Origin: Candidatus Aenigmatarchaeota archaeon
GTDB taxonomy: Archaea > Aenigmatarchaeota > Aenigmatarchaeia > CG10238-14 > SCSR01
DNA length: 40,704 nt
NCBI GenBank assembly: GCA_030615205.1
Contig: JAUWZS010000003.1
Coordinates: 1 to 40,704 of the forward strand
Direction of reading: 5' to 3'
Numbering within the stretch: the first letter of the stretch is position 1; every line of letters starts with the position of its first letter. The translations under genes were made by a program, and so were the position numbers. This document shows, in pieces, positions 839-40,050 of the stretch. The notes below the pieces were generated by a model, which worked only from the letters and a program-made list of their open reading frames with translations, was not told the DNA's origin and searched no databases.

Positions 839-927
839 TGGTGCCGGAGGCCGGACTCGAACCGGCACGGATATAACTATCCAGTGGATTTTAAGTCCAC
901 TGCGTCTACCCATTCCGCCACTCCGGC
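839..927 (-). tRNA. tRNA-Leu (anticodon UAA), CCA encoded
   Basis: The minus strand folds as a class II tRNA. The acceptor arm is GCCGGAG/CTCCGGC with discriminator A and an encoded CCA at 839-841. The anticodon stem GTGGA/TCCAC holds loop CTTAAAA (anticodon TAA). A long variable arm follows, then T-arm GCCGG-TTCGAGT-CCGGC. The D-arm (TGGCGGAATGGGTAGACGC) is of bacterial leucine type. Its 5' half up to the anticodon arm is duplicated at 35926-35968 and, degenerate, at 39981-40003, marking it as the integration target of the islands. Confidence 0.96.
885..927 (-). other. Left attachment core (5' half of tRNA-Leu)
   Basis: These 43 bp are identical to 35926-35968. They run from the tRNA 5' end to the anticodon loop and stem (plus strand begins TGGATTTTAAGTCCAC). 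The repeat defines a core for site-specific integration at the anticodon/5' half of tRNA-Leu. About 17 bp of upstream flank (CCTGGA..CT.GCCGG on the minus strand) is also similar at all three copies. Confidence 0.85.
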
Positions 928-3356: not shown

Positions 3357-3581
3357 TCATTTTGCTCACCTAAGGTTTTATTTTCTTTAAAGTAGTGATT
3401 TTCTCGCTTAAAAGCTTTACACCGAATCTACCTTAGAGATAATTTTTGTTATCGAATAGAAGAAAAAAATATAGAAAAAGATGTAGACAAAACCGAGAGT
3501 TTTAAATATGAGTTATGTTTTTCAGTTGTCGTTTCATAAAATGTAACTGAAACTTAACAAAAAGGGAATTTCATATAGAAT
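3357..3581. repeat. Intergenic module D, copy 2
   Basis: Second copy of the repeat at 1972-2174, diverged mainly in the middle. It ends in the promoter at 3554-3581. It directly precedes the Nudix/radical SAM operon. Confidence 0.85.
3554..3581 (+). promoter_or_regulatory. Sigma70-type promoter for Nudix/radical SAM operon
   Basis: TTAACA (3554-3559), 16-bp spacer, TAGAAT (3576-3581). An upstream in-frame TTG at 3581 overlaps this -10, which supports ATG 3617 as the real start of the first gene. Confidence 0.65.
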
Positions 3582-3616
3582 TGAATTGGTCGAAATTGGT
3601 ATACGCCTGCAACAAA

Positions 3617-6013: not shown

Positions 6014-6087
6014 GACGTGTCAACACATTTTTTGATAAGAAGTCCATATCCCTCCAAACTTAACAAAAAGCGAATTTCGTATATAAT
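6003..6087. repeat. Intergenic module B, copy 1 (short)
   Basis: Begins ACATTTCCTAAGACGTGTCAACAC like the copies at 9653 and 16372, but lacks their middle. It ends in the common promoter cartridge (6060-6087), followed by TTATGCC, an R'-like element. Confidence 0.75.
6060..6087 (+). promoter_or_regulatory. Sigma70-type promoter in module B1
   Basis: TTAACA (6060-6065), 16-bp spacer, TATAAT (6082-6087), then TTGAC and TTATGCC. Drives the membrane protein gene at 6159. Confidence 0.75.
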
Positions 6088-6158
6088 TGACTTATGCCCA
6101 ATTGAGCTTGCCCAAAAATCTGGAATATTTGTCAGAACTATTCTAATAGGAGTATATT

Positions 6159-6811: not shown

Positions 6812-6896
6812 GTCCAACGACAGGAGACGAAAGGGAAATCAGAGATTCCCCCCCAAATTGCCTTCGGCAACTTCTTTTCCCCGTAAAACGTTGTGC
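6812..6896. repeat. attC-like recombination site
   Basis: R'' GTCCAAC (6812-6818) and R' GTTGTGC (6890-6896) are near-complementary ends of an 85-bp imperfect palindrome. An inner hairpin is present (GGGAAATC..GATTCCCC), plus the TGCCTTCGGCA stem shared with module A. This matches the size and end sequences of integron attC sites. Confidence 0.65.
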
Positions 6897-6965
6897 GAAA
6901 TGCTCACTTCAGCCACAAAATACAAAAACAAATAAACATATAATATTATGAAAGAAGGTGAAAAA

Positions 6966-7169: not shown

Positions 7170-7189
7170 GCATCCTTCGTCGCACTATC

Positions 7190-7330
7190 ACCTAGCAGCG
7201 GACAAAAGGGAAATCAAAGATTTCCCCAAATTACCTTCGGCAACTTCTTTTATCCGCAAAACGAAATGAGAGATGACACAAAGTTCGTATACATGCTCCA
7301 AACTTAACAAAAGGAATCTTCGTATATAAT
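7190..7330. repeat. Intergenic module A, copy 2
   Basis: Contains a degenerate R'' (ACCTAGC), a long hairpin (GCGGACAAAAG..CTTTTATCCGC enclosing GGAAATC..GATTTCC), the shared AAAACGAAATGAGAGATGAC segment, and the promoter at 7304-7330. Confidence 0.8.
7304..7330 (+). promoter_or_regulatory. Sigma70-type promoter in module A2
   Basis: TTAACA (7304-7309), 15-bp spacer, TATAAT (7325-7330). Followed by TTAGCTG, in the place where other modules carry R'. Confidence 0.75.
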
Positions 7331-7360
7331 CCAATTAGCTGAAATACAAGAGTTATATTA

Positions 7361-8344: not shown

Positions 8345-8474
8345 TTTGTGGTTCGCTTCACTCACCCAAATTCTCCTTCGGTAACTTCTTTTATCCGCAA
8401 AACGAAATGAGAGATGGCACGAACTTCGTATATATCCTCCCCAATTTTGAGCAAAAGTGAATTTTGTATATAAT
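8345..8474. repeat. Intergenic module A, copy 3
   Basis: Shares CACCCAAATTCTCCTTCGG, CTTCTTTTATCCGCAAAACG, AAATGAGAGATG and the promoter cartridge with the other A modules. Confidence 0.8.
8447..8474 (+). promoter_or_regulatory. Sigma70-type promoter in module A3
   Basis: -35 TTGAGC (8447-8452; the cartridge is mutated here from TTAACA), 16-bp spacer, TATAAT (8469-8474). Confidence 0.65.
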
Positions 8475-8552
8475 TGACTTGCACGCCATTCTGGTCAAAA
8501 GATCTCAAATGGGATATATAAAATTCAATATATAGTTATCAAAAGGGTCAAT

Positions 8553-9656
8553 ATGAATAAAGTTATAATTCTCGGTGCAGGTGCCACATTCGGAGCTCAT
8601 CCTATAAACCCATGTTTAAAACCACCGCTTCTAAAAGACTTGCCGAATATTTTGCATTATGACTTTCTTTCATTGAATAGAAGTAAAGATGGTCCTCTTT
8701 TTAATAAAGGATTTAATGAATTGGTCGATTTAACTAACACTAGAAATGATATTGAAAAATTCTTTACTGTACTTTTCCTTCTTGAAATGCTTTCTGCAGA
8801 CATAAACCCAAGCTATGTTTTTATGCACGACGATGAGATCAAGGATCTATTATCAAATCATCAGAAGTTAAAAAAGTATTTCATAAATGACTCCGAAATG
8901 GAAATTGCTAAAATAATTCTTAAATATTATCTGTCCAATGAAAAAGAAGCATTAATGGTTTGTCCCAGAAATTTAAGAACATTTTTCCAAAGTTCTTTAA
9001 GAGAATATATGTTTCAATCACTGACAAATTGTTATTGCAAATATCATAGCAAAGCGTTTGGTGGCTTGGATGATACTGACTCGGTAATTAATTTTAATTA
9101 TGATGAAGTAGCTGATTTTACACTATTTACATTAGATAAATTAGGTATTGGTTCCTTTGAAAACCTTGGTTTTGATGGTATAGTATTTCCTAAAAAGAAA
9201 CAACCTGCGTGCTGCGTGAAATACCTCAAAATGCATGGGTCATTTAATTGGTGGACAAATATTGAATCAAAAGAGGTCTTTTATAATTTAATTTCTGAAG
9301 CAAGTTCTGAGAAACATTTAGGTAATACATTTTTCCCAATTGTTCTTCCCTTCTTAAGTAAGAAAATATTTTACCAAACTTATAGTATCCTAAAGAAGCA
9401 TCTCTACCAATTCGAAAACTTACTAGAAGAATCGAAGGAAATACTCCTTATCGGTAAAACATTTATGAATTCTGATGAAGAATTGTCAAGAATCATTAAA
9501 ACACATTCTCTAAGTAACAAGAAAAAACTAATTATCATTAACCCAAAAATTGCTTCATCAGAGTTTATTCGCTTCCATGAAAAATTATTCAATGCAGAAT
9601 ATATTAAAGGTTGGAAAAGGTTATATGACTACTTTATTGACCAGAACGGCGTATAA
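8553..9656 (+). CDS. SIR2-like NAD-binding domain protein (first of three)
   Basis: 367 residues. An N-terminal nucleotide-binding loop VIILGAGATFGAH (residues 4-16) is followed by NFNYDE (about 180), KMHGSFNWW (about 226-234) and a late LLIGKTFMNSDEEL strand. This is the order seen in SIR2-like proteins of bacterial defence systems, some of which deplete NAD+ on phage infection. Start ATG 8553 with AAAGGG upstream. The stop codon lies inside a GTATAAC R''-like element (9651-9657), so the gene ends at the recombination site. It is a single-gene cassette; a partner sensor is not evident. Confidence 0.75.
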   Translation: MNKVIILGAGATFGAHPINPCLKPPLLKDLPNILHYDFLSLNRSKDGPLFNKGFNELVDLTNTRNDIEKFFTVLFLLEMLSADINPSYVFMHDDEIKDLLSNHQKLKKYFINDSEMEIAKIILKYYLSNEKEALMVCPRNLRTFFQSSLREYMFQSLTNCYCKYHSKAFGGLDDTDSVINFNYDEVADFTLFTLDKLGIGSFENLGFDGIVFPKKKQPACCVKYLKMHGSFNWWTNIESKEVFYNLISEASSEKHLGNTFFPIVLPFLSKKIFYQTYSILKKHLYQFENLLEESKEILLIGKTFMNSDEELSRIIKTHSLSNKKKLIIINPKIASSEFIRFHEKLFNAEYIKGWKRLYDYFIDQNGV

Positions 9657-9825
9657 CATTTCCTAAGACGTCGCAACACTTTTTTAAGAATGAGGTCTCA
9701 GTTATTAGGATACGTTTCCCCATTTTATATCAATAATCGCTCTGCTAATTAAGTTGCCTGAAAAAATCTCCACCAGACCTTCCAGACTTAACAAAAGGCG
9801 AATTTCGTATATATTTGAGTTGTGC
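9651..9825. repeat. Intergenic module B, copy 2, attC-like
   Basis: Starts at GTATAAC (R''-like) and ends at GTTGTGC (R', 9819-9825). The interior matches module B3 (ATTTCCTAAGACG, TTAAGAAT, AGGTCTCAGTTAT, AGGATACGTTT). It contains the promoter at 9788-9815. Confidence 0.8.
9788..9815 (+). promoter_or_regulatory. Sigma70-type promoter in module B2
   Basis: TTAACA (9788-9793), 16-bp spacer, TATATT (9810-9815), then TTGA and GTTGTGC. Confidence 0.7.
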
Positions 9826-9903
9826 GGAATGCAGTGACACTACTGCTATCGCCCACACATCACGCGGTCATATCTTTCACCGAGCAGTTCGAGGGCTTCT
9901 TAG

Positions 9904-10839: not shown

Positions 10840-10924
10840 CAGAAGGTCTACCCGCACTTCGCATAACATCGTGTTTCTCGTTTCGCTCAAACCCACCTAT
10901 GGTGGGATTCAGATATGCTCAAAT

Positions 10925-11152
10925 CTATGAAAATCATGTTCTCAAGCAACAATTTTTAAGGTCTAATATATTGACCACTAATCTATTCATCCTGACTTGA
11001 CGGATATTGTGTTTATACGATCAAGCCGGGGTCGAGTAATAAATGTTATAACCTGCCAGAGCTAATCTCAACCTCCTTTTTTCTTGTATTATCTCTCTTT
11101 CAAGTATATAATAAATCAAAAGGGGTGGATTTTCATAATATAAACGTTAGAT
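10925..11152. repeat. Intergenic module C, copy 1
   Basis: About 225 bp highly similar to 14635-14857: GAAAATCAT, CTAATCTATTCATCCTGACTT, GGATATTGTGTTTATACG, CCAGAGCTAATCTC. It ends CATAATATAAAC followed by GTTAGAT, an R' element (11146-11152). Includes a promoter. Confidence 0.85.
11084..11112 (+). promoter_or_regulatory. Sigma70-type promoter in module C1
   Basis: TTGTAT (11084-11089), 17-bp spacer, TATAAT (11107-11112). Conserved in C2. Confidence 0.6.
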
Positions 11153-11199
11153 GAAATTGCCAGTTCGGAGTTGAAACATGAGAGGAGGATCAATGTAAG

Positions 11200-12339: not shown

Positions 12340-12483
12340 GCAACTTCGGCTACCGTGGGCTTTCCAGTTCACTTCGCTCGCCCAAATACTTCGCACTTCG
12401 CAAAGCCCGTGAACGAAATGACAGGCGACACAAACTTCGTATATATCCTCCAAACTTAACAAAAAGCGAATTTCGTATAGAAT
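12340..12483. repeat. Intergenic module A, copy 4
   Basis: Nested inverted repeats GGGCTTT..AAAGCCC and GTTCAC..GTGAAC enclose TTCGCTCG and ACTTCGCACTTCGC. The shared ATGACAG.CGACACAAACTTCG segment and the promoter cartridge follow. Confidence 0.75.
12456..12483 (+). promoter_or_regulatory. Sigma70-type promoter in module A4
   Basis: TTAACA (12456-12461), 16-bp spacer, TAGAAT (12478-12483). Confidence 0.7.
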
Positions 12484-12527
12484 TGAGTGAACTGCCATTT
12501 CGGTGAGCAACAGACGGAGCAACGGAA

Positions 12528-13324: not shown

Positions 13325-13435
13325 TCCGCCAGAATCCACCGTCGGCAACTTCTTTCATCCGCAAAACCAAATGAGAGATGACATAAAGTTCGTAGACGGC
13401 TCCAAACTTAACAAAAAGCGAATTTCGCATATGAT
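13325..13435. repeat. Intergenic module A, copy 5
   Basis: Shares CGTCGGCAACTTCTTTCAT, CCGCAAAACCAAATGAGAG, ATGACATAAAGTTCGTA and the promoter cartridge. It is preceded at about 13290 by CAGCCAACATCAAACAAACG, an R''/L''-like start. Confidence 0.75.
13408..13435 (+). promoter_or_regulatory. Sigma70-type promoter in module A5
   Basis: TTAACA (13408-13413), 16-bp spacer, TATGAT (13430-13435). The in-frame ATG at 13435 starts inside this box, so it is not used. Confidence 0.7.
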
Positions 13436-13479
13436 TGATTTATCTGAAATTACCTACATGCAAACTATTGAAGGTGCCG

Positions 13480-14529: not shown

Positions 14530-14634
14530 TAGGAGGTGACTTCAGACAACACACCATATGCGCCTGGGCTTACCCCTTGCCCTTCGGAACATTGCTCTCT
14601 TTGGTCGCAACCTCACATACGCTGGAATCTACGA

Positions 14635-14857
14635 AAATCATTTCGTCAACAAACACTTTCTAAGATCTAGCACATTGGCCACTAATCTATTCATCCTGAC
14701 TTAATGGATATTGTGTTTATGCGGCCAGGTATAGGTTCAAGTAACAAATGTTGCAACTTACCAGAGCTAATCTCGATCTGCTTTTTTTCTTGTGCTATAT
14801 CTCTTTCAAGTATATAATAGACTAGAAGGGATGATTTTCATAATATAAACGTTAGAC
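14635..14857. repeat. Intergenic module C, copy 2
   Basis: Second copy of 10925-11152, ending in TAATATAAAC followed by GTTAGAC (R', 14851-14857), the classical integron core form GTTAGACGCC. It follows an attC-like stretch (14530-14630) with ACAACACACCATATGCGCC. Confidence 0.85.
14790..14818 (+). promoter_or_regulatory. Sigma70-type promoter in module C2
   Basis: TTGTGC (14790-14795), 17-bp spacer, TATAAT (14813-14818). Confidence 0.6.
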
Positions 14858-15100
14858 GCCACAAAGAAAAATTTTTATAATATTGAGAGGATGTTCCATC
14901 TTCACTGCTGCAAAACATTTTTTGACGGTTTGGGAAATTGATGCATAATAAACACAAGAATGACTGGTTATTTCGGGGGAAGAAAAGCAGGCATAACGTT
15001 TTTTCATCTGTAGGTTTTTATCACGACACAATGTCAGATATATCTCGCTAGGCGACATCTCTGATCTGGGGTAGGCCCCCCTTTATAAGCGAAGGTTGCT
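14858..15100. other. Leader of the Mrr-Hint gene; no gene seen
   Basis: About 240 bp between the R' element of C2 and the next start codon, with no ORF of merit. It may be untranslated leader of the gene at 15101. Confidence 0.35.
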
Positions 15101-16368: not shown

Positions 16369-16632
16369 GCCTAACATTTCCTAAGGCGTGTCAACATATT
16401 TTTTAAGAATTAGGTCTCAGTTATAGGATACGTTTTCCCATTTTGTTTCAATTAATCGCTTTTGCTCGTTAAACTGCCTGCAAAAAATCTCTACCGACTC
16501 CTTAAATCGTCCTAGACCATGACAGATTCACAACCACTGAATTTTATCTTAATCCTCCTCCCAACGGTGGTGCAGGTCTGTACATGCCCCAGACTTAACA
16601 AAAAGCGAATTTCGTATATGATTGAGTTAGGT
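16369..16632. repeat. Intergenic module B, copy 3, between R'' and R'
   Basis: Starts GCCTAAC (16369-16375) after the CAGC leader typical of attC, and ends GTTAGGT (16626-16632). The interior matches B2 (TTTCCTAAGGCGTGTCAACA, TAGGTCTCAGTTAT, AGGATACGTTTTCCC), plus an extra stretch of about 85 bp. Contains the promoter at 16595-16622. Confidence 0.8.
16595..16622 (+). promoter_or_regulatory. Sigma70-type promoter in module B3
   Basis: TTAACA (16595-16600), 16-bp spacer, TATGAT (16617-16622), then TTGA and GTTAGGT. Confidence 0.75.
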
Positions 16633-16660
16633 GCAACTGGCAGGAAAAGGAGCAAAGATA

Positions 16661-18037: not shown

Positions 18038-18054
18038 AACCCTCGCCCAGCAGC

Positions 18055-18155
18055 GCCTAACAGCGGCCGCAAAACGTAATGAGAGATGACACAAAGTTCG
18101 TATATATCCCTCCAAACTTAACAAAAAGCGAATTTCGCATATGATTGAGTTAAGC
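18055..18155. repeat. attC-like module A, copy 6, containing a promoter
   Basis: R'' GCCTAAC (18055-18061) and R' GTTAAGC (18149-18155) bound 101 bp. The hairpin present in module A2 is collapsed here to AGCGGCCGC. Then come AAAACGTAATGAGAGATGAC and the promoter cartridge. This is the clearest case of a promoter lying between R'' and R'. Confidence 0.75.
18118..18145 (+). promoter_or_regulatory. Sigma70-type promoter in module A6
   Basis: TTAACA (18118-18123), 16-bp spacer, TATGAT (18140-18145), then TTGA and GTTAAGC. Confidence 0.75.
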
Positions 18156-18222
18156 GAAAGTTTGATTGTCATGCAGGAATGATTTATATGTTTGGCAATT
18201 CAAATAAATAGAGGAGGAGAGA

Positions 18223-19183: not shown

Positions 19184-19270
19184 GTCTAACACAGCGTAAA
19201 TGGTTCGTGCTTGAGGTACTCACCCAAATTTTACTTCACAAAAGCTTCTTTTATGCTGGGAACGTTAAGC
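19184..19270. repeat. attC-like recombination site (best match without promoter)
   Basis: 87 bp: R'' GTCTAAC (19184-19190), R' GTTAAGC (19264-19270). The inner arms CAGCGTAAA and TTTATGCTG are complementary in 8 of 9 positions. Size and core sequences match integron attC sites. No TTAACA/TATAAT cartridge is present. Confidence 0.75.
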
Positions 19271-20149: not shown

Positions 20150-20225
20150 CCGGGAACGAAATGAAAGATGACACAAACGTCATATTCCCTTCCAGATTTA
20201 ACAAAAAGCGAATTTGGTATATAAT
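20150..20225. repeat. Intergenic module A, copy 7 (short)
   Basis: TTGCCGGGAACGAAATGAAAG, ATGACACAAACGTCATA and the promoter cartridge. It is preceded by CAGATAACATATAATAAAGG (20097), an R''/L''-like start just after the gene at 19294. Confidence 0.75.
20198..20225 (+). promoter_or_regulatory. Sigma70-type promoter in module A7
   Basis: TTAACA (20198-20203), 16-bp spacer, TATAAT (20220-20225). Confidence 0.75.
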
Positions 20226-20264
20226 TGACTCGTCGAAAATTTTTATTGGTGGTCTACTCTATAA

Positions 20265-22169: not shown

Positions 22170-22736
22170 TTAGTATGATGCCTACAAAAGATATCCATGA
22201 CTTCAATGCTAAGTATAAAGCAGCTCTGGAACAGGTTAAAAGATCGACGATATCTCAGAAGAATAAAGACTTGATCCTGGATTTTGACAGAACTTGCTTC
22301 CTCGAAGGATTGAGCAAACCAAGACGAATTAGGCTAGTCGGTTCCCTTGTTAGATTAGCAGAGCGCTACTTGGCAAAGGATTTTGATAAGGCGACAGAAA
22401 AAGACATTAAGAAAGCTGTTATGCAGATAGAGTCAAGAGAAGATTGTTCTGTTTGGACAAAGCATGGCTACAAAACTACCCTAAAGAAATTCTACAAATG
22501 GTCGGAGTATGGGGACAATTACAAGCAAAGGAATGATTACCCTAAGATTGTGAGCTGGATCAACGCCAACATCAAGAAAAAGGATAAGCCTCGGGTGCAA
22601 GCATCAGATATTCTCACGGAGAAAGAGATCAAGAAGCTCTGGAGTGAACCCCTGAAACTGGACAAAATGACTTAGAGTGGCTAGAGTATCTGACAGGGCC
22701 AGCAGATCCCCAAAAGGGGTTGAAAGGAGCCTGTGC

Positions 22737-23087
22737 ATGAGAAAGGCAAGAACCTTTACCAGCCAGTTCAAACGAGAAGTCGTGGAAGAGCTCCTCAGCG
22801 GAACCACCGGACCGGCCCAACTTGCCAGGAGATATAATCTTTCCTCCGGTCTTCTGTATCACTGGAAGAACCAGTATGTCCGAGGCAAACTCAATAATGA
22901 ACCTGCCGAGGAAGCTGCTCTTCGGGACCGTGTCAGCCAACTAGAACAGATACTGGGCAGACTCACCTTGGAGAATGAGTTTTTAAAAAAAGCTTTAGAG
23001 AACACCCTCAAGGAACAGAGAAAAAAAGAGAGTTCATTCATCTCCACCAGGGCCTCATCCCTAGTACCCAAAGGGGGTGTGAGCTAA
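22737..23087 (+). CDS. IS3-family transposase OrfA (helix-turn-helix)
   Basis: 116 residues from ATG 22737 (AAAGGAG upstream); an in-frame GTG at 22677 lacks a ribosome site. FKREVVEELLSG, QLARRYNLSSGLLYHWKNQY is the IS3 OrfA helix-turn-helix that binds the terminal repeats. A leucine-zipper-like coiled coil follows (VSQLEQILGRLTLENEFLKK), used for dimerisation. The stop overlaps the OrfB start by one base (TAATG), pointing to translational coupling rather than the usual -1 frameshift. Confidence 0.9.
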   Translation: MRKARTFTSQFKREVVEELLSGTTGPAQLARRYNLSSGLLYHWKNQYVRGKLNNEPAEEAALRDRVSQLEQILGRLTLENEFLKKALENTLKEQRKKESSFISTRASSLVPKGGVS

Positions 23088-23917
23088 TGAAGATCCCCCG
23101 CAGCACCTTCTATTATCAAGATAAAGAGAAGCCTTTCGAAGAGCTTAAAGCCGAGATAGATCTTGAGGATGAGACCGAGAAGATTTGCCTTAACTGGCCC
23201 CGCTACGGCTACCGACGGGTGACCAAACAGCTCCATCGAGAAGGCTGGAAAGTTAACCACAAGAGAGTTCTGAGAATGATGCGGGAAAATGATCTTCTCT
23301 GCCGAGTGAGAAGATGGGGAGTGAAAACTACCAACAGTAACCACTCACATCCGGTATTTCCCAATCTCATCCAGGATCTTCTCATCACCTCGATCAATCA
23401 GGTTTGGGTTTCGGATATCACCTACATTCGTCTGCCCACAGCATTTGTGTACCTGGCCGTCATTTTGGATCTCTACTCTCGACGGGTGATTGGATATCAT
23501 CTTTCCCGGCACCTGGATGCTACCCTTACCCTGAGGGCTCTACGTCTGGCGATAAGCGAGAGAGATCCTGCCTCCGGCTCTATTCACCATTCCGATCAGG
23601 GAGTACAGTACGCCTGCTCGGATTATGTTAAAGAGCTTCTGGAACATGGCTTTAAGATCAGCATGGCCCGACGGGGCAATCCCTATGACAATGCCGTCTG
23701 TGAGAGCTTTATCAAAACACTAAAGGATGAGGAGATCTACCTCTGGGAGTACAAAACCATGGAGGATGCCGAGAGGAGAATTTGCCATTTTATCAAGGAT
23801 GTGTATAATGAAAAGCGACTGCACTCATCATTGGGCTATTGCCCACCCAATGAGTTTGAGGAGCAGTTGCTGGATAAACAAAAACCAACTGTTCCCTCTC
23901 AGATTACTCTAACCTAA
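23087..23917 (+). CDS. IS3-family transposase OrfB (DDE integrase)
   Basis: 276 residues. An N-terminal helical region (NWPRYGYRRVTKQLHREGW) precedes the retroviral integrase-like core. Asp110 (WVSDITYI), Asp170 (HHSDQGVQY) and Glu206 (NAVCESFIKTLK) form the DD(35)E triad, with a Lys at 210. The end carries the usual YNEKRLHSSLGYCPP motif. All key residues are present, so catalytic activity is expected. Confidence 0.93.
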   Translation: MKIPRSTFYYQDKEKPFEELKAEIDLEDETEKICLNWPRYGYRRVTKQLHREGWKVNHKRVLRMMRENDLLCRVRRWGVKTTNSNHSHPVFPNLIQDLLITSINQVWVSDITYIRLPTAFVYLAVILDLYSRRVIGYHLSRHLDATLTLRALRLAISERDPASGSIHHSDQGVQYACSDYVKELLEHGFKISMARRGNPYDNAVCESFIKTLKDEEIYLWEYKTMEDAERRICHFIKDVYNEKRLHSSLGYCPPNEFEEQLLDKQKPTVPSQITLT

Positions 23918-24748
23918 TTTGTCCAACCATAGGGGTTCACCCCACTCATAGGTGTAGCAGAACATCCCAGGGATAAGGCATTCATTTCTATGTTATATGA
24001 GCTTGGTGCCAGAATTGGAGAGATAGGATCTTTGCAAATCAAGGATATTACAAGAGATAAGTATAGCTATATAGTCGATTTAAATGGTAAGACCGGACAT
24101 AGAACTCCCAGGATAGTTATGTCTGATCCTTACGTTACGGGCTGGCTTAATGTACATCCACTAAAATACAACCCTGAAGCTCCATTGTGGGTTATGACGG
24201 GGAACAGAGACAAGAATGAAAAGATGAAATACGGGACTTTCAGAGCACTTATTCTCAGACTGAGAAAGAAAGCTAAAATCAAAAAGAGGCTCTATCATCA
24301 TCTTCTCAGGCACACCAGAGTAACTCATCTTTTGATTAATAGACAAATAAGCGAGGCTCAAGCTAAGGTTTACTTTGGCTGGGTTCCCTCAAGTACTATG
24401 CTCGCTGAATATTCCCATCTTCTCTCAAGTGATGTGAACGATACTATTTTAGAAATTCATGGAATTAAGAAAACAAAGGAAAAGGAAAGTGTACTGAAGC
24501 CAAAGCAATGTCCATCGTGTAGCGCAATTAACTCTAAAGATGCTCTCTTTTGCCAGAAATGTAGCAAAGTCCTAGATGTGAAAACAGCAATAGAGCTTGA
24601 TGAAAAAAGGAAAAGCTCCGATGAGATAATAACTGCTTTAGCTAATAATCCAAAAAGCTTGAAGAAATTGGCCGAGATCTTGTCAGAGCTTGGCTTAGTG
24701 AAGAAACTGATGGAGATTTAAACGTGCAATGAGAGAATGTGTGAATCC

Positions 24749-27659: not shown

Positions 27660-28709
27660 TTATCCCAGCTTTTGACCAAGTTCACGAATTGAATTTTCTC
27701 CAAATCTCTTCTTGATTATGTTGGACCTAGATGACTTGAGATAGTCCTTATCAGGAGGACATGGACCGATGTACCAGAGGTTCGACCTATATTTCTCTAC
27801 TGATAGCCTCACTCGGTCATCGATCCACTTGTCTCTCAAAGAATGCCCAACGATTATTAAGTTCAAATTTCGTCTCTTGAAACACTCTCTTGCTCTTTCT
27901 CTTACGTCCTTGAATGGTTTTTCACCCAGTTGTTTCATCTGCTCTTTTACCGGCAAAGGCCAAATTAGGAGATCCTCGATCTTCTGTTGCATCTGTATTG
28001 CTTTCAGTTTTACGGCTACAGTGGAACGCAGCTTAACTACTAGATCCTTTTCAGTATCAGCCTTCCAGTCCACTGACCCATGTACTTTGAACAATCTTAT
28101 TATACCTTCTTCTGTACTATCAATGTTGTCGAACACGTGAGGGCTCCAACGGTACTCCATCGTACTTTCGCCATACCCAAAACCATCGGTCAGATGGTAT
28201 CTTCCCTCATGCGCCTCAATAACTTTCTCTAGGACCAAATCATAATTGGTCGTGCAAATATCGAGTCTCGGGGTGTATCTGAGAATTTCGTCAAACAGTG
28301 AGTCGTAGACGCTTCGAGCTAGGTCAAAATTAAAGAAGCTACATTTGTCCAGAATGAGGGTCCTTACCTGATTTAATAAGGCAGAAGCCAAGTCGCTACC
28401 TTTCTTAACCTCTGGAACTAGATATTTGATCACTTCTTCGATGTCATCCCTAATATAATCTCTACGGTTTCGAATCTTATTGAACCGGGACTTCAAAGAA
28501 TCTTGTATGTGCCATAGTTTTTGTGCGGGAAGCTCTAGTTTTCCATAGACACTAGTCACCCTTCCATTCAACTCTACAAATTCCTTTACGAGGTCACTTG
28601 TTCTCAGAAACTCCAGCACAAAATCTCTCATTGTCGGTATGCCAAAAGGACTTGATGCCCCTGCTCCGACAACTAGCAACACAGGTCTCTCTACTTGGTT
28701 ATCTTTCAT
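27660..28709 (-). CDS. SIR2-like NAD-binding domain protein (second of three)
   Basis: 349 residues. LLVVGAGASSPFGIPT (residues 11-26) is the NAD-binding loop. ICTTNYDLVLEK (about 180), FKVHGSVDW (about 230) and LIIVGHSLRDKWID (about 305) complete the SIR2-like defence-protein order. The His in KVHGS corresponds to the expected catalytic His. ATG 28709 has no clear ribosome site. Unlike the other two SIR2-like genes, it is on the minus strand and not in a cassette. Confidence 0.75.
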   Translation of the reverse strand: MKDNQVERPVLLVVGAGASSPFGIPTMRDFVLEFLRTSDLVKEFVELNGRVTSVYGKLELPAQKLWHIQDSLKSRFNKIRNRRDYIRDDIEEVIKYLVPEVKKGSDLASALLNQVRTLILDKCSFFNFDLARSVYDSLFDEILRYTPRLDICTTNYDLVLEKVIEAHEGRYHLTDGFGYGESTMEYRWSPHVFDNIDSTEEGIIRLFKVHGSVDWKADTEKDLVVKLRSTVAVKLKAIQMQQKIEDLLIWPLPVKEQMKQLGEKPFKDVRERARECFKRRNLNLIIVGHSLRDKWIDDRVRLSVEKYRSNLWYIGPCPPDKDYLKSSRSNIIKKRFGENSIRELGQKLG

Positions 28710-29114: not shown

Positions 29115-29194
29115 TGTGTGCCTCCTATTTTCACTAGTGATTGTGAAGAACTGTTTTCTATCTTAGCTGAAAAGTGAGCCGCGTCAAAAACAAA

Positions 29195-29316
29195 TCTCAC
29201 ACACCAGGGCCCTCCAAACAGATTGACAACCACTAAAATTTACCTTAACTTATATCCAGAGGATGCTGTTAGGGAATTCCTGAGTAAGTGGTAGGTTCGT
29301 ATATGTCTTGTTAAGC
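29195..29316. repeat. Intergenic module E, copy 1
   Basis: CACACACCAGGGCCCTCCAAA, CAGATTGACA, ATCCAGAGGATGCTGTTAGG, TTCGTATATGTCTT. Ends at R' GTTAAGC (29310-29316). Similar copies at 31200, 32300, 33375 and 34965. Confidence 0.85.
29223..29251 (+). promoter_or_regulatory. Sigma70-type promoter in module E1
   Basis: TTGACA (29223-29228), 17-bp spacer, TAACTT (29246-29251). Confidence 0.7.
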
Positions 29317-29339
29317 GAAAGTGCTAAAAGGGGGCAAAA

Positions 29340-29996
29340 ATGATTGCAAACAAGAGATTCACCTCAATGGTCTTTCTAACCTGTCTGGTATTGAGCATTT
29401 GGCTTATTGTGCCGGTTTATGCACAAAATCTTGGCAGAAATACCTATTATGTGCGGCTTAGAGAGTACACCACAAAACCAATGGATGGGTTTGACCCTAA
29501 GGGAGATACAGTTAAACTCAGATTCGGTGATGATGTATCTTTAGTTGAAAAAAGTGAAGGAACACCAAGCATATGGCTAGTATCAACAGACAATAGGAAA
29601 GCCTGGATTCCCTTTTTCTACTTAACAAACAATCAAAGAGAAATAGAATTTCTTAGAAAGGTAAACAAAATCCCGTCTACAATGTCTTTCGTCTATGAAA
29701 AAGATGGTACTGTTCGCGTCTATGGATTTCTTAGAACTGGATTCTTGCTTCTCGAATCATACGGTTTGTGCGCCTCCGATGCTGGAAGCTTCCAAGTGGC
29801 TAACGAAGGAAATGCTGTAATGTTTGATAGTGCGGCAGTTAAACGAACTTGGACCAATCCTATTATTATGGGTTGTGGTACGAGAACCTACAAACTCCGT
29901 ACGGACACCATGTATTATTGCACGAGTGTGGATAGTAAGGGCAACGGTTGTTTTGTTTGCATTGACCTACGTGCACTTTCTATATGCAAAGATTAA
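29340..29996 (+). CDS. Exported hypothetical protein
   Basis: 218 residues. The first 28 form a signal peptide (basic start, LTCLVLSIWLIVPV core, cleavage likely after VYA). The mature part begins with a stretch like a bacterial SH3 domain (VKLRFGDDVSLVEKSEGT, WLVSTDNRKAWIPFFYL), then a Cys-containing beta-rich region (six Cys, possibly disulfide-bonded). It probably acts outside the cytoplasm. ATG 29340 with AAGGGGG upstream. A cassette between R' 29310 and R'' 30022. Confidence 0.65.
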   Translation: MIANKRFTSMVFLTCLVLSIWLIVPVYAQNLGRNTYYVRLREYTTKPMDGFDPKGDTVKLRFGDDVSLVEKSEGTPSIWLVSTDNRKAWIPFFYLTNNQREIEFLRKVNKIPSTMSFVYEKDGTVRVYGFLRTGFLLLESYGLCASDAGSFQVANEGNAVMFDSAAVKRTWTNPIIMGCGTRTYKLRTDTMYYCTSVDSKGNGCFVCIDLRALSICKD

Positions 29997-30021
29997 CCTA
30001 TAACAGGCACTATGCATCTTC

Positions 30022-30107
30022 GCCTAACATCATACAACACCAGATTGGTAGTTCACTTCGTCCACCCAAACCGCTTCGTGGCTTCGCCAATCTAGCAACG
30101 GTTAGGC
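30022..30107. repeat. attC-like recombination site (most symmetrical)
   Basis: 86 bp: R'' GCCTAAC (30022-30028) and R' GTTAGGC (30101-30107) are exact inverse complements, extending outward by three bases (TTC/GAA). Inner arms AGATTGG and CCAATCT are also complementary, around a loop with TTCGTCCACCC and GCTTCGTGGCTTCG. It looks like a textbook attC site. Confidence 0.8.
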
Positions 30108-30168
30108 GAACCTCTTGATTTTTGACAAGAGGACACGTGTCGTAAAAAATACAAAGGAGGAACAAATA

Positions 30169-31095
30169 ATGACTGTATTGAAGAATTTCTTGGCAATTCT
30201 GAGCATAGTTGCTATGCTTCTGGGTGTGACGGAGTCATGCCATTCAAATGAAGGCGAAAATATGGCTCTCTATGTTTCAATCAGAGGAGCGGTCAATATA
30301 CCCTCCGTAGAGGGTCAGATAAACAGGGTGCTGTTTGAAGGAGGTGGTTTCGGAACGCCTGATGAAAGATTCAGGATCACATTTGAGATGGAGGGTAAAA
30401 CTATGAATTATGGATTCTGGAATGCGGGCTCAGAGTGGGTGATAAAAGGAAAGGTCGATTATGCTGGCTGTCATTTTGAGGCGAATCCAAAGTTTCCGCT
30501 TTCCTTCAAGCTGACAGGAAAAGGTCTACGCTATCTTTCTGGAATTGGTAAAGTAAAATCAGCATCAGGCAAGGAGACTTCCTTCCCAGAAAAATCAGTT
30601 GAGCAATGGTTGCTAGTTTTGAGATCGTCAAAGGAAGTGGACAATAAGCAGGGAGCTGCCCAGGCCTTGGGGTATTTGTTTCGCGACCAAAAGAGCGGCC
30701 CCGAAATACCAAAAGTAATTGATGCTTTAAAAATCGGCCTAAAAGACAAGGCTTGGCAAGTTCGGCGAGACGCAGCTGCTTCTTTGGGTCAGATAGGAAG
30801 TGAAGATGCTTCTGATGCACTAGTTCCTTTGCTCTCGGACAATACTCAAGATTGGTGGGTGGCTGAAGTGGCAGCAGCAGCCTTGTTTAAGATAGGCCAC
30901 GGCTTGAGTACGTTGAGTATTCAGAAGATAGAAAACATGTTGGCTTCAAAGAACCCAAAAATGAGATTACTTGGTGTCCAAGCTCTTGCTGCTGGGGCTC
31001 ATTCGGCGGTAATGCTTCTGCAGGAAATGTTAAAGAACGAAAAGGACATTTCCGTAAAAGAAGCTGCTGAAAAGAGTATCGAGAGATTAAAGTAG
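30169..31095 (+). CDS. Lipoprotein-like HEAT-repeat protein
   Basis: 308 residues from ATG 30169 (AAAGGAGG 7 bp upstream); the ORF opens further upstream at 30115. The N-terminus is a signal peptide with a possible lipobox before Cys (LLGVTESC). Residues 25-125 are beta-rich and unrecognised. Residues 130-308 hold HEAT-type repeats (KQGAAQALGYLF, WQVRRDAAASLGQIGS, MRLLGVQALAAGA). Such repeats bind proteins. A possible promoter (TTGACA, 30122-30127) lies upstream. The cassette runs from R' 30101 to R'' 31105. Confidence 0.65.
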   Translation: MTVLKNFLAILSIVAMLLGVTESCHSNEGENMALYVSIRGAVNIPSVEGQINRVLFEGGGFGTPDERFRITFEMEGKTMNYGFWNAGSEWVIKGKVDYAGCHFEANPKFPLSFKLTGKGLRYLSGIGKVKSASGKETSFPEKSVEQWLLVLRSSKEVDNKQGAAQALGYLFRDQKSGPEIPKVIDALKIGLKDKAWQVRRDAAASLGQIGSEDASDALVPLLSDNTQDWWVAEVAAAALFKIGHGLSTLSIQKIENMLASKNPKMRLLGVQALAAGAHSAVMLLQEMLKNEKDISVKEAAEKSIERLK

Positions 31096-31104
31096 CAAAG
31101 GTTC

Positions 31105-31366
31105 GCCTAACACGCTGTTTATGGCTCACTTCGTTCGCTCAAGTGCTTCGCACTTCGCAAAGCTCCGAACCGCTAATCTAAAGACCTACCAGCCAATAGG
31201 TTAGGATAAATCCGGAAATAAGTCTTTAAAAAGGATTTCCGCCAGAGCCCTCCAAACAGATTGACAATGACTAAGATTTGGCTTACCTTATCTCCAGAAG
31301 GTGCCGTTAGGAATTTCTTGAACGCTTGGAACTTCGAACAGAGATACGCGTGCCTCGGTGTTATGC
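31105..31366. repeat. attC-like start plus intergenic module E, copy 2
   Basis: R'' GCCTAAC (31105-31111), a hairpin-rich stretch (CACTTCGTTCGCTC, AAGTGCTTCGCACTTCGC), then module E from about 31200 (AGAGCCCTCCAAACAG). Ends at R' GTTATGC (31360-31366). The -10 here is TACCTT. Confidence 0.75.
31261..31289 (+). promoter_or_regulatory. Sigma70-type promoter in module E2
   Basis: TTGACA (31261-31266), 17-bp spacer, TACCTT (31284-31289). Confidence 0.6.
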
Positions 31367-31404
31367 TATGCTTTGAAATTTGAAGGAGTAGCTGACACCG
31401 TTTC

Positions 31405-32253
31405 ATGTCATCGAGGTGTAGCTGGTCGGTCCGGACAGAGGCTTTTGTTGACTGTACATTAGACAGGTACCTTCCTTTTCATGTAATTCAGAAAGGGACT
31501 ATGGTTGTGTGGAAAGCAGTCACTACTGTCGTAGACCGTATTGGACTATGCGAACATCGGCAAATTCTAATGCACAGGATCCACTCTCACTTCAATATTC
31601 CCTACACGGGGGTCGTCATTGTATTAGAAAAAGAAGACTACCAAACATATCATAACCACGTGTGGAGACAGACAGCCGTTCATCTAAACATTCAAGTGGG
31701 CGGTCTTGAAGAGATGAGTCCTGAACACTTATTGACGTTGATGAGATCTCAAGACTATTCTAATCTCATTTGGCTGTCCAAACAGGCTTGCGAAGCTCGG
31801 GACATTTGTTTTGCCTGGATACTAACCCATGAATTACGCCATCTGGAACAAGATTTGTGGAGTCATACTTTATCTAGGGCGGGACGCTTTCTTAACTGTA
31901 CCCTTGGCAGGATAAATATGGAAGAACCACAAGTACAAAACGCCATTCCCACCGAATTAGACGCCAACCTGTGTGCGTGGCGGGTTGGCCGAAGAGTATT
32001 CGGGGCTGAGATCGTGGACACTCACGTGCAAAATGCACCTGTTGGAGATAATAGCAAACAGTCATTTCAGATACTTAGATCTCACGACCCTGATAAGGCA
32101 TACGACGTTTTTGGCTGCACCAAGAGTTTGCTGCAGAAATACCAATCTCAATTTAAGGAGCTCCAGAAACAGTCCGAAGACAAATTCATAGCAACTTTCG
32201 ATATTGACAAGGCCTGTTCAGAACTAAGTAGAAGACCAAACAGTGTCCAGTAG
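31405..32253 (+). CDS. Putative zinc metallopeptidase (HExxH)
   Basis: 282 residues. AWILTHELRHLEQD (about residues 144-157) contains HELRH, an HExxH zinc-binding motif. Downstream TELDANLCAWRVGRR gives a Glu in the usual position of the third ligand in gluzincin-like peptidases. No signal peptide, so it probably acts in the cytoplasm. ATG 31405 lies 16 bp after AAGGAG; the Met at residue 33 is an alternative. A toxin-like or phage-sensing role is possible but not shown. Confidence 0.55.
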   Translation: MSSRCSWSVRTEAFVDCTLDRYLPFHVIQKGTMVVWKAVTTVVDRIGLCEHRQILMHRIHSHFNIPYTGVVIVLEKEDYQTYHNHVWRQTAVHLNIQVGGLEEMSPEHLLTLMRSQDYSNLIWLSKQACEARDICFAWILTHELRHLEQDLWSHTLSRAGRFLNCTLGRINMEEPQVQNAIPTELDANLCAWRVGRRVFGAEIVDTHVQNAPVGDNSKQSFQILRSHDPDKAYDVFGCTKSLLQKYQSQFKELQKQSEDKFIATFDIDKACSELSRRPNSVQ

Positions 32254-32299
32254 AGTAGATGACCGACCATAACCGATATAATCAAAAAACCAACCTCCT

Positions 32300-32418
32300 C
32301 CACCAGGGCCCTCCAGACAGATTGACAAGCGCTGAAATTTGTCTTAACTTATCGCTAGAGGATGCTATCAGAGAATCTTTGAATAGGTGGTAGGTAGGTT
32401 CGTGTATACTCGTTAAGC
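32300..32418. repeat. Intergenic module E, copy 3
   Basis: CACCAGGGCCCTCCAGACAG, GCTAGAGGATGCTATCAGAG, GGTTCGTGTATACTC, ending at R' GTTAAGC (32412-32418). Confidence 0.85.
32322..32350 (+). promoter_or_regulatory. Sigma70-type promoter in module E3
   Basis: TTGACA (32322-32327), 17-bp spacer, TAACTT (32345-32350). Confidence 0.7.
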
Positions 32419-32430
32419 GACAAAGGTCAC

Positions 32431-33273
32431 TTGCCAGGAGAAATACACATTTTTCACGAGCATAACTCTGGTACCGAAAGTTCAGCAGACCGTTGGATAG
32501 AGGCCATCCGCCATTTAGAGGCCGAGTCCCTTTTGGTCCCTAGTGACGAGCAGGCCACAATGCGGTTATTTTCCGTTCTCACGGATTTGGCATTTGAAAC
32601 CGAGCCGAAGTCAGGGTGGCCTCAGGTGTTGCGCGACGTCGTATCTGTGGGTGAAGAAACTATCGTCTATTTGGAGATGGAGCTAGATCGTTTAGCTTCC
32701 AGACTACCAACAGGAATTGGACCGCAGCAACAACTTGGTTCGGACCTCCTATCTAGATTACAGAACGTATGGAAAGAGCTAGAGATGGCCAAATTGCTTT
32801 ACTTCTCCGTTGCCCTCTGTTATATTAAATCTCCTAGGGTTGCAGCGCCCCTTTGTAGCCTTCTCGAAAAGAACATACAGAGCTGGGTTTGGCCTCGGCT
32901 TATTGATGATAATATAGTTATGTTTGATCCTTTCGAGAGAGTGTACATTGCTAGCGCAAGAGCTTTCTATTGGGTTTGTGCTGCTAACGTCCTTCCCCGA
33001 CTCAGACAAATCCTTCGTGAAGTAAGCCGACGGCACGATAGCATGTTGAATGCCTTGCCGTATGCTTTGCGTGCAATCGGATTTCTCGGAACGTCCAAGG
33101 ATATTCCGCTTGTTGAGACATTCCAGGATTTTTCTTGTCCTCCATTCGATGTGTCCGAAGCAACGGTGAGAATTGAAGCTAAACATGCTCTCTACGCTTT
33201 GCGCCATCCTGAAGAGCGGCAAAACCGAGCCAGTAGTCACATTGATACTTGGCGTCGAGACGACCGGACCTAA
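32431..33273 (+). CDS. Hypothetical helical cassette protein
   Basis: 280 residues from a TTG at 32431 (AAAGGT just upstream). The start is uncertain; a Met at residue 44 is an alternative. It is all-alpha and HEAT-like in its second half (VAAPLCSLLEKNI, YIASARAFYWVCA, LPYALRAIGFLGTS, RIEAKHALYALRHPEE), so it may be a protein-binding scaffold like the 30169 gene. The stop codon lies inside an R''-like ACCTAAC (33268-33274), as expected of a cassette that ends at its recombination site. Confidence 0.5.
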   Translation: MPGEIHIFHEHNSGTESSADRWIEAIRHLEAESLLVPSDEQATMRLFSVLTDLAFETEPKSGWPQVLRDVVSVGEETIVYLEMELDRLASRLPTGIGPQQQLGSDLLSRLQNVWKELEMAKLLYFSVALCYIKSPRVAAPLCSLLEKNIQSWVWPRLIDDNIVMFDPFERVYIASARAFYWVCAANVLPRLRQILREVSRRHDSMLNALPYALRAIGFLGTSKDIPLVETFQDFSCPPFDVSEATVRIEAKHALYALRHPEERQNRASSHIDTWRRDDRT

Positions 33274-33374
33274 CGTGAATAATTACTTGTTTTGTCCTAA
33301 CATTGCATTAGAGGGTGCCGCTGTGGCTTCATAAAGTATTGCAACCTAAAAACACACGAGCTAGTAAGTTTAAA

Positions 33375-33500
33375 TAAATAAACCGGGAAATAGACTCCAA
33401 AAAAGGAATCCCTCCCCAGAGCCCTCCAAACAGATTGACAAGAGCGGAAATTTGGGCTTAACTTCATTCCGCAGGATGCCGTTGAAAAGCTCTTGAATAA
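33375..33500. repeat. Intergenic module E, copy 4
   Basis: GGGAAATAGACTCCAAAAAAGG and CCAGAGCCCTCCAAACAG match the 31200 copy; GATGCCGTTGAAAAGCTC continues it. A clean R' is not visible; ATTATGC at 33532 is the nearest candidate. Confidence 0.8.
33435..33464 (+). promoter_or_regulatory. Sigma70-type promoter in module E4
   Basis: TTGACA (33435-33440), 18-bp spacer, TAACTT (33459-33464). Confidence 0.65.
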
Positions 33501-33555
33501 GCTACAGATCCAGTATCAAGACATTTGGCAGATTATGCCCCGAAAGGAGGTGAAA

Positions 33556-34752
33556 TTGCACAATTCAGCGAGAATCACATTTCTACTTGGCTCTGGTATT
33601 TCAATTCCCGCTGAAATACCATCAACCGAAGAGATAACAGAAACGGTTCTTTCCAGCAGGGACATTGTACGCCATACGAATGAGAATTACTACCTTTGGC
33701 CTGGCAAAGACATGGGTAAGGGATACGTCAAAAGAATACAGAACTTCTTGCGCAAACTGAAGTCCGAAATCGAGGATTATTGCAAGAGATTCAGGAGAGA
33801 TGCGAACTATGAGGATCTCTATTATGTGGTTAGTCAGATAAACGACAGTGAAATAGGAGAGTATCCGAATCCAGTCGTGCAACCTTTTATTAATAAAATC
33901 TTGCCGCAGGTCAAATCACTTCTTGCCGGCAAGGAAGGAGAAAGTAGAGAAAGATGGGAATTGCGTGAACTTGCTTACGAAACGACAGCTTTCATTCATG
34001 ATGTAGTATGGGACCTACTTTGCAAAGATCCGAGTAGACTGGACCATCTTAACGTTCTCAGAGATGCGTGCTTAGATGATGAGTTATCGAGAATCGATAT
34101 CTTTACTATCAACCACGATACGGTTTTGGAGCGCTGTCTGTTGGAGAATCAGATTGCCTTTACTGATGGTTTTGCTGAACCGGAAAATCAAATTCGATAC
34201 TGGAAGCCGGACTTGTTTGAAAAGAAATCTCGTAAAGTGGGGATATTCAAATTGCACGGCTCTGTGGATTGGTTCCGATTCAGACCCTATGGTGGAGATT
34301 GGTGTGATGAGTTAATAGGCATTCCTCCAAATGGGAATCCTGAGGATACAAGGAACCCTCAGGGCAAGAAACAGTTCGCCCCAGACAATCGGCCCATGAT
34401 ATTGATAGGCACGACCAACAAGATCCTGCAGTATGTAAAACCGATCTATGCTGATCTCTTGTCTCGGTTTTATTCTTCTCTGCAAGATTCTGGCCGCTTG
34501 GTAATATGCGGATATGGTTTCGGTGATAAAGAAATCAATACACAGATTAGTTATTGGGTTTTCTCTTCGCGTGATTTCAGAATCACTATAGTGGATACCG
34601 ATCCAGAAAAACTCAAGAGAAGAGCCACGGCCGCCATGCGCTCCGAATGGGATGAATGGATAAGAAGATACAAGTTGGCTATTATCAAAAAAGGGATAGA
34701 AAGAACTTCTTGGCCAGATATCAAAAGGACAAACTTTTGCAGCCAAAGGTAG
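33556..34752 (+). CDS. SIR2-like NAD-binding domain protein (third of three)
   Basis: 398 residues from a TTG at 33556, chosen because AAAGGAGG (33543-33550) lies 5 bp upstream; an earlier in-frame ATG (33535) overlaps that site. ITFLLGSGISIPAEIPS is the NAD loop. FTINHDTVLERCL (about 185-195), FKLHGSVDWFRF (about 230) and LVICGYGFGDKEIN (about 320) follow the SIR2-like order, with the likely catalytic His in KLHGS. These proteins can act as NAD+-consuming defence effectors. It is a single-gene cassette and its sequence is quite unlike the other two SIR2-like genes. Confidence 0.75.
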   Translation: MHNSARITFLLGSGISIPAEIPSTEEITETVLSSRDIVRHTNENYYLWPGKDMGKGYVKRIQNFLRKLKSEIEDYCKRFRRDANYEDLYYVVSQINDSEIGEYPNPVVQPFINKILPQVKSLLAGKEGESRERWELRELAYETTAFIHDVVWDLLCKDPSRLDHLNVLRDACLDDELSRIDIFTINHDTVLERCLLENQIAFTDGFAEPENQIRYWKPDLFEKKSRKVGIFKLHGSVDWFRFRPYGGDWCDELIGIPPNGNPEDTRNPQGKKQFAPDNRPMILIGTTNKILQYVKPIYADLLSRFYSSLQDSGRLVICGYGFGDKEINTQISYWVFSSRDFRITIVDTDPEKLKRRATAAMRSEWDEWIRRYKLAIIKKGIERTSWPDIKRTNFCSQR

Positions 34753-35075
34753 CAATAGTATAGCGTTGATCCAGCCAAGAAAACAGACATTGCGCGGTCC
34801 CGGAAAATAGGTCCAGCAGAGGGAAGATCAGAAGGCCGGGGAACCACACCGTGACCCACACACAAGCTCACCTTGTTTTTGGACGGGGCGAGTAAACGCT
34901 AAGCTTGCTGAAGTTAGCGACGCACTAGCGAACAAGTCTGGTCAATCCGCGGATGTGTTTCAAAAACAAGTCTCCCACACACCAGAGCCCTCCAAACAGA
35001 TTGACAACTACTGAAATCTGGCCTAGCCTGCGCGTAAAAGAGCTCATTTAGAGATTCTTGAATAAAGGGTGGGTC
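34753..35075. repeat. Inverted repeat region plus module E, copy 5
   Basis: TAGCGTT (34762) and AACGCTA (about 34896) form an inverted repeat spanning about 140 bp, the size of a long attC, but they do not match RYYYAAC. Module E follows from about 34965 (CAAGTCTCCCACACACCAG, AGCCCTCCAAACAGATTGAC). Confidence 0.6.
35001..35029 (+). promoter_or_regulatory. Sigma70-type promoter in module E5
   Basis: TTGACA (35001-35006), 17-bp spacer, TAGCCT (35024-35029), the weakest -10 of the E set. Confidence 0.5.
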
Positions 35076-35925: not shown

Positions 35926-35968
35926 TGGATTTTAAGTCCACTGCGTCTACCCATTCCGCCACTCCGGC
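35926..35968. other. Right attachment core (duplicate of tRNA-Leu 5' half)
   Basis: Identical over 43 bp to 885-927. The rest of the tRNA is absent. It marks the right end of the large island. Confidence 0.85.
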
Positions 35969-36001
35969 TAGATCCTACAGGCCCTCATTATAAATGAATC
36001 T

Positions 36002-39907: not shown

Positions 39908-39980
39908 ATTTTGTGACCAATTTGTGACTGTGAGAGGCACAGATTCATATAAATTGAGACAGACTGGTGGGGAGAAAAAA
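39908..39980. repeat. Direct repeat beside outer att (copy 2)
   Basis: Similar to 35788-35860 (TTTTGTGACCAATTTGTGAC, GAGACAGACTGGTGGGGA). Both lie just left of a tRNA-Leu remnant. Confidence 0.6.
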
Positions 39981-40003
39981 TCCACCCATTCTGCCACTCC
40001 GGC
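39981..40003. other. Outer attachment remnant (degenerate tRNA-Leu 5' half)
   Basis: TCCAC then CCATTCTGCCACTCCGGC, with an internal deletion relative to 885-927. The flank AGATCCTCCAGG matches the flank of the right att (AGATCCTACAGG). Confidence 0.65.
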
Positions 40004-40050
40004 CAGATCCTCCAGGTTTCCATTATGCAATAAATCTAAGGAGGGTGCAA

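Follow-up and report, generated by a model that had tools for sequence, protein, structure and literature searches.

Analysis of a 40,704-nucleotide stretch of DNA (the window, which is the whole of contig C19 of a 1.17-Mb MAG that is 88.5% complete) and of other contigs of the same MAG revealed a short DNA element, a putative integron insertion site with a built-in promoter, that stands in front of at least 13 genes on these contigs. We think it probable that these elements, here called cartridges, are attI-derived insertion sites that carry a Pc-like core promoter and that recur through a cassette array in front of 13 or more different genes, some of them of the defense type. The sequence and geometry of the cartridges, the junction motif that they have in common, their resemblance to attI, and their uneven decay are results of computation.

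Thirteen copies of the cartridge were found; the window has 11 of them, and contig C35 has the other 2. They are related by descent, with up to 97% identity to one query and E values down to 4.6e-36, and all lie on the gene strand with different genes downstream. Their common order is TTAACA-16-TATRAT-TGA and then a 13-base motif, GTTRNNYGMAATT: a -35 element (TTAACA or a variant), a spacer of 16 bp (15 bp in one copy), a -10 element (TATRAT or a variant), TGA, and the presumed cut at G|TT. The alignment from the -10 element to motif position 13 is free of gaps in all 13 copies, and in each the hexamer ends 4 bp before the cut, which bears out the claim of the sequence-only reading that the distance from the -10 element to the crossover is constant at about 4 bp. 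The first four motif columns are G (7/13), T (12/13), T (9/13), and a purine (13/13); columns 5 and 6 are free, and they are followed by a pyrimidine (12/13), G (10/13), A or C (12/13), A (10/13), A (13/13), T (11/13), and T (11/13). Homology among the copies breaks off sharply at position 14, with background beyond it, and in 10 of the 11 window cartridges the ATG of a long ORF lies 27 to 85 nt past the joining point. Constraint on the R'-like bases had been predicted, and within this genome these bases indeed do not vary as freely as their surroundings.

The two parts of the cartridge have decayed unevenly. The -10 element is within one mismatch of TATAAT in 13/13 copies; the GTT triplet is intact in only 3/13 and a strict GTTRRRY in only 2/13, a degenerate GTTRNNY is conserved among the 13 cartridges, and ATT, CTT, TTT, GTA, GTG, GCT, GTC, or CTC stands in place of GTT in the other copies. 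On the plus strand of the window, GTT is retained by the type B cartridges at 9788 to 9831 (TTAACA-16-TATATT; -10 at 9810 to 9815; R box GTTGTGC at 9819 to 9825) and 16595 to 16638 (TTAACA-16-TATGAT; -10 at 16617 to 16622; R box GTTAGGT at 16626 to 16632) and by the type A cartridge at 18073 to 18161 (-35 at 18118 to 18123; -10 TATGAT at 18140 to 18145; R box GTTAAGC at 18149 to 18155). The sequences that had been read for these three modules, and the alternatives given for other copies, proved exact. The triplet is lost from the remaining plus-strand copies: the type D cartridges at 2147 to 2190 (-35 TTAACA at 2147 to 2152; -10 TATAAT at 2169 to 2174; R-type site GTAATCTGCTATT at 2178 to 2190) and 3554 to 3597 (-35 at 3554; -10 TAGAAT; ATTGGTCGAAATT from 3585); the type B cartridge at 6060 to 6103 (TTAACA-16-TATAAT; CTTATGCCCAATT from 6091); and the type A cartridges at 7260 to 7346 (behind an attC remnant; -35 at 7304, a 15-bp spacer, and -10 TATAAT; ATTAGCTGAAATA from 7334), 8401 to 8490 (-35 TTGAGC at 8447; -10 TATAAT; CTTGCACGCCATT from 8478), 12412 to 12499 (TTAACA-16-TAGAAT; GTGAACTGCCATT from 12487), 13365 to 13451 (TTAACA-16-TATGAT; TTTATCTGAAATT from 13439), and 20155 to 20241 (TTAACA-16-TATAAT; CTCGTCGAAAATT from 20229).

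The core at the right edge of the cartridges was compared with other junctions by means of a junction matrix made from 13 non-cartridge junctions, namely, 11 attC-to-gene junctions on four contigs and the two ends of the type C linkers described below. Cartridge ends scored a mean of +7.3 bits at the predicted position, the best score at other offsets from -60 to +89 was -2.3, and random position sets had a mean of -12.0 (standard deviation, 1.65), with 0 of 20,000 reaching the observed value; since the junctions were picked by eye and the copies are related, these figures express the strength of the match and not a strict probability. The extension GMAAT fits the matrix as well as the heptamer does. 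Other, independent cassette junctions in this genome carry both the core and the GMAAT extension, and by this measure the GTT-type core of the cartridges is a true R-type box of an integron. The earlier proposal of an R' core holds to this extent; the core does not appear to be the R' of an attC spanning 18055 to 18155 and is better read as the R box of an attI. The bases that follow the -10 element might also have been kept as a transcription start and early transcribed region or as an operator, their likeness to an integron core being coincidental. The purine at position 4 does lie 7 nt past the -10 element, where a start is expected, but the same motif comes after intI-type remnants and ends ordinary attC sites and type C linkers, where no -10 element stands beside it, and we regard this explanation as highly improbable. 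We give next to no credence to chance or an assembly artifact, that is, to repeated AT-rich, promoter-like sequence without a common origin: many promoter-like matches do arise in this AT-rich DNA, where such sites as a class show no excess (59, versus 52.9 in shuffles), but the 13 copies and their identity already exclude it.

As in an integron or CALIN array, several attC sites on the same (plus) strand lie between ORFs, in addition to the remnants before type A cartridges. Ordinary sites without a cartridge lie at 6812 to 6899 (R' GTTGTGC; by eye and fold) and 19184 to 19270 (R'' GTCTAAC and R' GTTAAGC), and a further ordinary site lies at 30022 to 30107 (R'' GCCTAAC and R' GTTAGGC), all on the plus strand; ordinary attC sites are present on other contigs of the MAG too. 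The attC sites were located by eye, scan, and folding, with no calibrated attC model behind them, and a simple arm-complementarity scan was too insensitive for those of this array. Type A cartridges sit behind attC arms of the form GCGGAYAAAAG...CTTTTATCCGC-AAAAC, complete or loop deleted, and the left boundaries of types A, B, and D are unlike one another. These arms have no R' heptamer of their own, reading AAAAC|GAAATGAG, versus AAAACGTTGTGCGAAATG at the cartridge-free junction at 6893. The arms at 7188 to 7272, upstream of the cartridge at 7260, fold strongly (z, -4.0), and some other type A arms do not fold. No cartridge forms a hairpin (z, -0.9 to +0.7), the linker at 18052 to 18158 folds no better than shuffles, and the imperfect hairpin with R''/R' and L''/L' pairing that marks an attC is absent from the cartridges. 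To judge from this, the stretch from 18055 to 18155 is an attC remnant plus a cartridge and not one attC, because the type A attC arms are without R' and no cartridge folds. The bottom-strand cleavage of a folded attC that the sequence-only reading had envisaged here finds no support: the R'' that it used belongs to a separate, loop-deleted attC remnant upstream (GCCTAACAGCGGCCGCAAAACGTAATGAG at 18055 to 18085, plus strand, read by eye), and the cartridge has no hairpin.

A related possibility is that the linkers are unusual attC sites, bounded by R'' and R', in which a promoter beside R' points outward, in which case each cassette would carry the promoter of its downstream neighbor. Type B linkers do run from the AAC of an R''-like sequence, which directly follows the upstream gene, to the R box; the R'' GCCTAAC at 18055 can pair with the R' at 18149; and a transcription start within attC is known for a gene-less Vibrio cassette (PMC11014356). 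We nevertheless consider both the unusual attC and the neighbor's promoter improbable, as the cartridge has neither L''/L' pairing nor a hairpin, type A has a separate pair of attC arms upstream, and the left half of the cartridge resembles attI and not attC.

Other promoter-bearing linkers occur in the same island. Type C linkers lie on the plus strand at 10909 to 11158, with a different promoter (TATATAAT) about 36 bp before the R site GTTAGATGAAATT at 11146, and at 14613 to 14863, with the R site GTTAGACGCCACA at 14851. They form a repeat of about 250 bp; GTTAGA ends both window copies, and a third copy lies on the short contig L038 at about 1760 to 1500 (minus strand). Five type E linkers (CCCTCCAAACAGATTGACAA) at 29184 to 35074 of the window, two of which end in GTTAAGCG, have a perfect -35 element, TTGACA, in common and form a second promoter-bearing linker family.

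The resemblance of the cartridges to attI is seen by comparison with sites adjoining intI-type remnants. On contigs C30, C35, and C18, the 3' ends of intI-type genes survive as remnants, and behind each remnant lies a site of the kind ATTTCGGATATAAACGAGTT; the source integron would be expected to have intI and then a TTCGGATATAAACGAGTT-type attI. These remnants match the C-terminal end of TIGR02249, and most are truncated or have interrupted frames; naming them IntI is not secure, because the matches cover only that end and score below the cutoff. A complete integron has an intact IntI integrase with its additional domain; no intact intI-type gene was found in the MAG, which is 88.5% complete, and no intact IntI was found at an E value of ≤1e-50 in 156 genomes of the phylum, a threshold at which control genomes were also silent. 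Another MAG, G037, has a related site at the end of a contig, and an attI profile was made from only these four sites. Over 81,344 window positions, this profile placed the cartridges at ranks 1 to 8, 11, 15, and 58 (the type D cartridge at 2147 being first and the type A cartridge at 20155 the weakest match), and ordinary attC junctions scored -1 to -11; leave-one-out profiles kept the same ranking pattern. The cartridge consensus aligned over nearly its full length with the C30 site (score, 44; shuffles, 22.2 with a standard deviation of 4.2; 0/300) and with the C35 site (score, 38; shuffles, 1/300), with GTT in register in both. Like an attI, the cartridges are double-stranded sites without a hairpin, and their left half-site is like that of the other attI sites of the lineage. 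Between the -35 and -10 positions, the alignment shows more bases in the remnant-adjacent sites than in the cartridge, so that these sites do not have the 16-bp spacing, and we infer that the cartridge promoter arose by shortening of an attI-type site. The model sites adjoin intI-type remnants, and the 11 window cartridges do not. A further attI-type site precedes a gene on contig C10 without intI. A site on contig C9 was rejected as a fourth attI of the same kind, having no profile match though it lies beside the most IntI-like remnant. Fragments of cassette arrays make up five short contigs of the MAG (L038, L039, L040, L041, and L081), in which the stretch between attC and gene contains an intI-type 3' remnant or an attI-type site.

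The near-whole-cartridge likeness to the remnant-adjacent sites also bears on whether a promoter-bearing 5' leader was simply duplicated and became attached to numerous cassettes through gene conversion or ordinary recombination. A 101-bp qacE promoter segment fused to several cassettes (PMC8876359) is a precedent for such a leader, types A, B, and D differ in their left boundaries, and most R boxes have decayed; a duplicated leader leaves the likeness unexplained, though it would be compatible with an attI-derived first copy. We judge this origin to be quite improbable, and equally so the corollary that the right edge at the R box is merely where cassettes begin. A MITE-like mobile promoter element was set aside, as the left boundary varies by type and the right edge is the R box.

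If the cartridges are attI-derived promoter sites, the -10 element would overlap the attI left half-site and spacer (TTTCGTATATRATTGA) and end 4 bp short of the G|TT joining point, and GTTRNNYGMAAT after it would comprise the R box and the first cassette bases. In the integron mechanism, joining occurs at G|TT, and a cassette there would begin at about the transcription start; the earlier suggestion that a new cassette joined at G/TT lands in the start region agrees with this. With an IntI-type recombinase present, a cassette would be fused just downstream of a ready promoter, its mRNA would start about 3 to 5 bases into the joined cassette, and transcription would cover the cassette from its first bases on. 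Promoter activity, start sites, past action of an IntI, and the way in which the cartridge was copied are all matters that we infer. Copying may have occurred by excision and reinsertion of attI-gene-attC units, recombination of partial attI sites being documented for mobile arrays (PMC12901181), or by the stacking of several integron platforms that lost intI to differing degrees, and remnants of unequal length inside arrays are compatible with both routes. It is possible, if rather unlikely, that this is a multi-attI integron in which every captured cassette comes with its own attI or re-forms one, the promoter being fused at the joining point; every gene captured would then be expressed already, without reliance on one Pc at the head of the array.

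The GTT triplet is invariant in working integron sites. Because the -10 element is kept in 13/13 copies and GTT in 3/13, most copies have probably lost recombination and kept transcription. Present-day recombination is at most a possibility and for most copies unlikely, since 10 of the 13 are without GTT and the search turned up no intact intI-type gene. With the promoter kept while GTT decays and the intI-type remnants degraded, the array is probably a relic, now a set of individually promoted accessory (partly defense) genes rather than an active capture device.

The array lies in a 35-kb island in a tRNA-Leu gene (839 to 927, minus strand), whose end is duplicated at 35926 to 35981. The end copies at 885 to 940 and 35926 to 35981 mark the island borders; a third, weaker copy further out, at 39961 to 40016, may mark an older or second insertion. 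The island has two tracts of same-strand genes with the repeated linkers between them, and its defense-type proteins include SIR2, Mrr-type and HSDR_N nucleases, and DUF4062-HEAT; three different SIR2-domain genes lie at 8553 to 9656, 27660 to 28709, and 33493 to 34752. The island integrase, a tyrosine recombinase (22175 to 24721) interrupted by an IS3-family element (22677 to 23917), carries a tail of the zinc-ribbon type, archaeal in our view. The proteins of the large contig C29 of the MAG mark it as archaeal. The window encodes HU and a CCA-encoding tRNA-Leu for which a search of 35 further genomes of the order gave nothing at an E value of ≤0.001, and its tetranucleotide profile is less like those of C29 and C26 than these are like each other. 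The window contig is probably bacterial DNA misbinned into an archaeal MAG, an origin that suits a sigma-70-type promoter. A reading of the -10 element as an archaeal TATA box was rejected, as bacterial DNA is favored by the conserved TTAACA hexamer that precedes it by 16 bp, by HU, and by the CCA-encoding tRNA.

Among the genomes searched, the cartridge is known from one MAG only. When 84,980 genomes were scanned for the exact pattern, three stretches matched, two in Parabacteroides and one on a Deltaproteobacteria contig; one of the Parabacteroides stretches is a chance match at a coding end, and the Deltaproteobacteria stretch is in a promoter-like place with no visible integron. The cartridge pattern had no matches in IMG/VR, plasmids, or 15 other genomes of the family. 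IMG/VR matches to TTCGGATAYAAACRAGTT have no intI-like frame upstream and look like chance.

To our knowledge, the integrons described so far have a single attI and a promoter that lies further upstream. In class 2 integrons, as here, a promoter inside attI (Pc2A in attI2) reads into the first cassette, but the integron has a single attI and its promoter precedes the first gene by 192 bp (PMC8876359), whereas here 4 bp separate the end of the -10 element from the joining point and the unit recurs. The Vibrio cholerae superintegron likewise has a sigma-70-type promoter upstream of the attIA joining point, but in one copy and with the mRNA start 65 bp upstream (PMC3948777), in contrast to the start expected here, 3 to 5 bp past joining. 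Delta-attI-type cassettes of class 1 and 2 integrons also place attI pieces ending in GTTRRRY at array cassette boundaries, where they recombine; in the accessible part of that report (PMC12901181), the short piece replaces attC behind the ORF and a repeated promoter is not mentioned, whereas the present unit is about 85 bp long, bears a promoter, and is often behind a separate attC. Types B and D may fit this class; type A keeps attC arms upstream. Gene-less promoter cassettes (PMC11014356 and PMC6557892) resemble the cartridges in that promoters spread through an array can drive downstream cassettes, but those of the Vibrio set are separate, about 500 to 670 bp long, and have their own attC, whereas the cartridge is a short repeat fused to an insertion-type site and does not itself form an attC hairpin. 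Integrons and CALINs in archaeal MAGs (PMC9668308), in the part of the report accessible to us, include attC arrays mostly without intI, as here, and a semiconserved attI directly downstream of intI, as at C30 and C35; that part does not mention a repeated attI or promoter, and the present window looks bacterial and misbinned. Promoters in attI (class 2), promoter cassettes, and partial attI sites in arrays are thus already known. Within the searchable papers, outside which most subscription papers lie, we found no report of an attI-type site repeated before many genes or of a -10 element ending 4 bp before the joining point.

In known integrons, cassettes far from the single Pc are thought to be silent or dependent on their own promoters. 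An insertion-type site that bears a -10 element before each gene would be a different answer to the problem of expressing stockpiled genes. Such a site would also bring recombination and transcription together within 40 bp, so that RNA polymerase and the recombinase would be in competition for a single site. The uneven decay, in which the promoter is kept and the joining triplet lost, suggests a way to tell capturing arrays from arrays that only express their genes.
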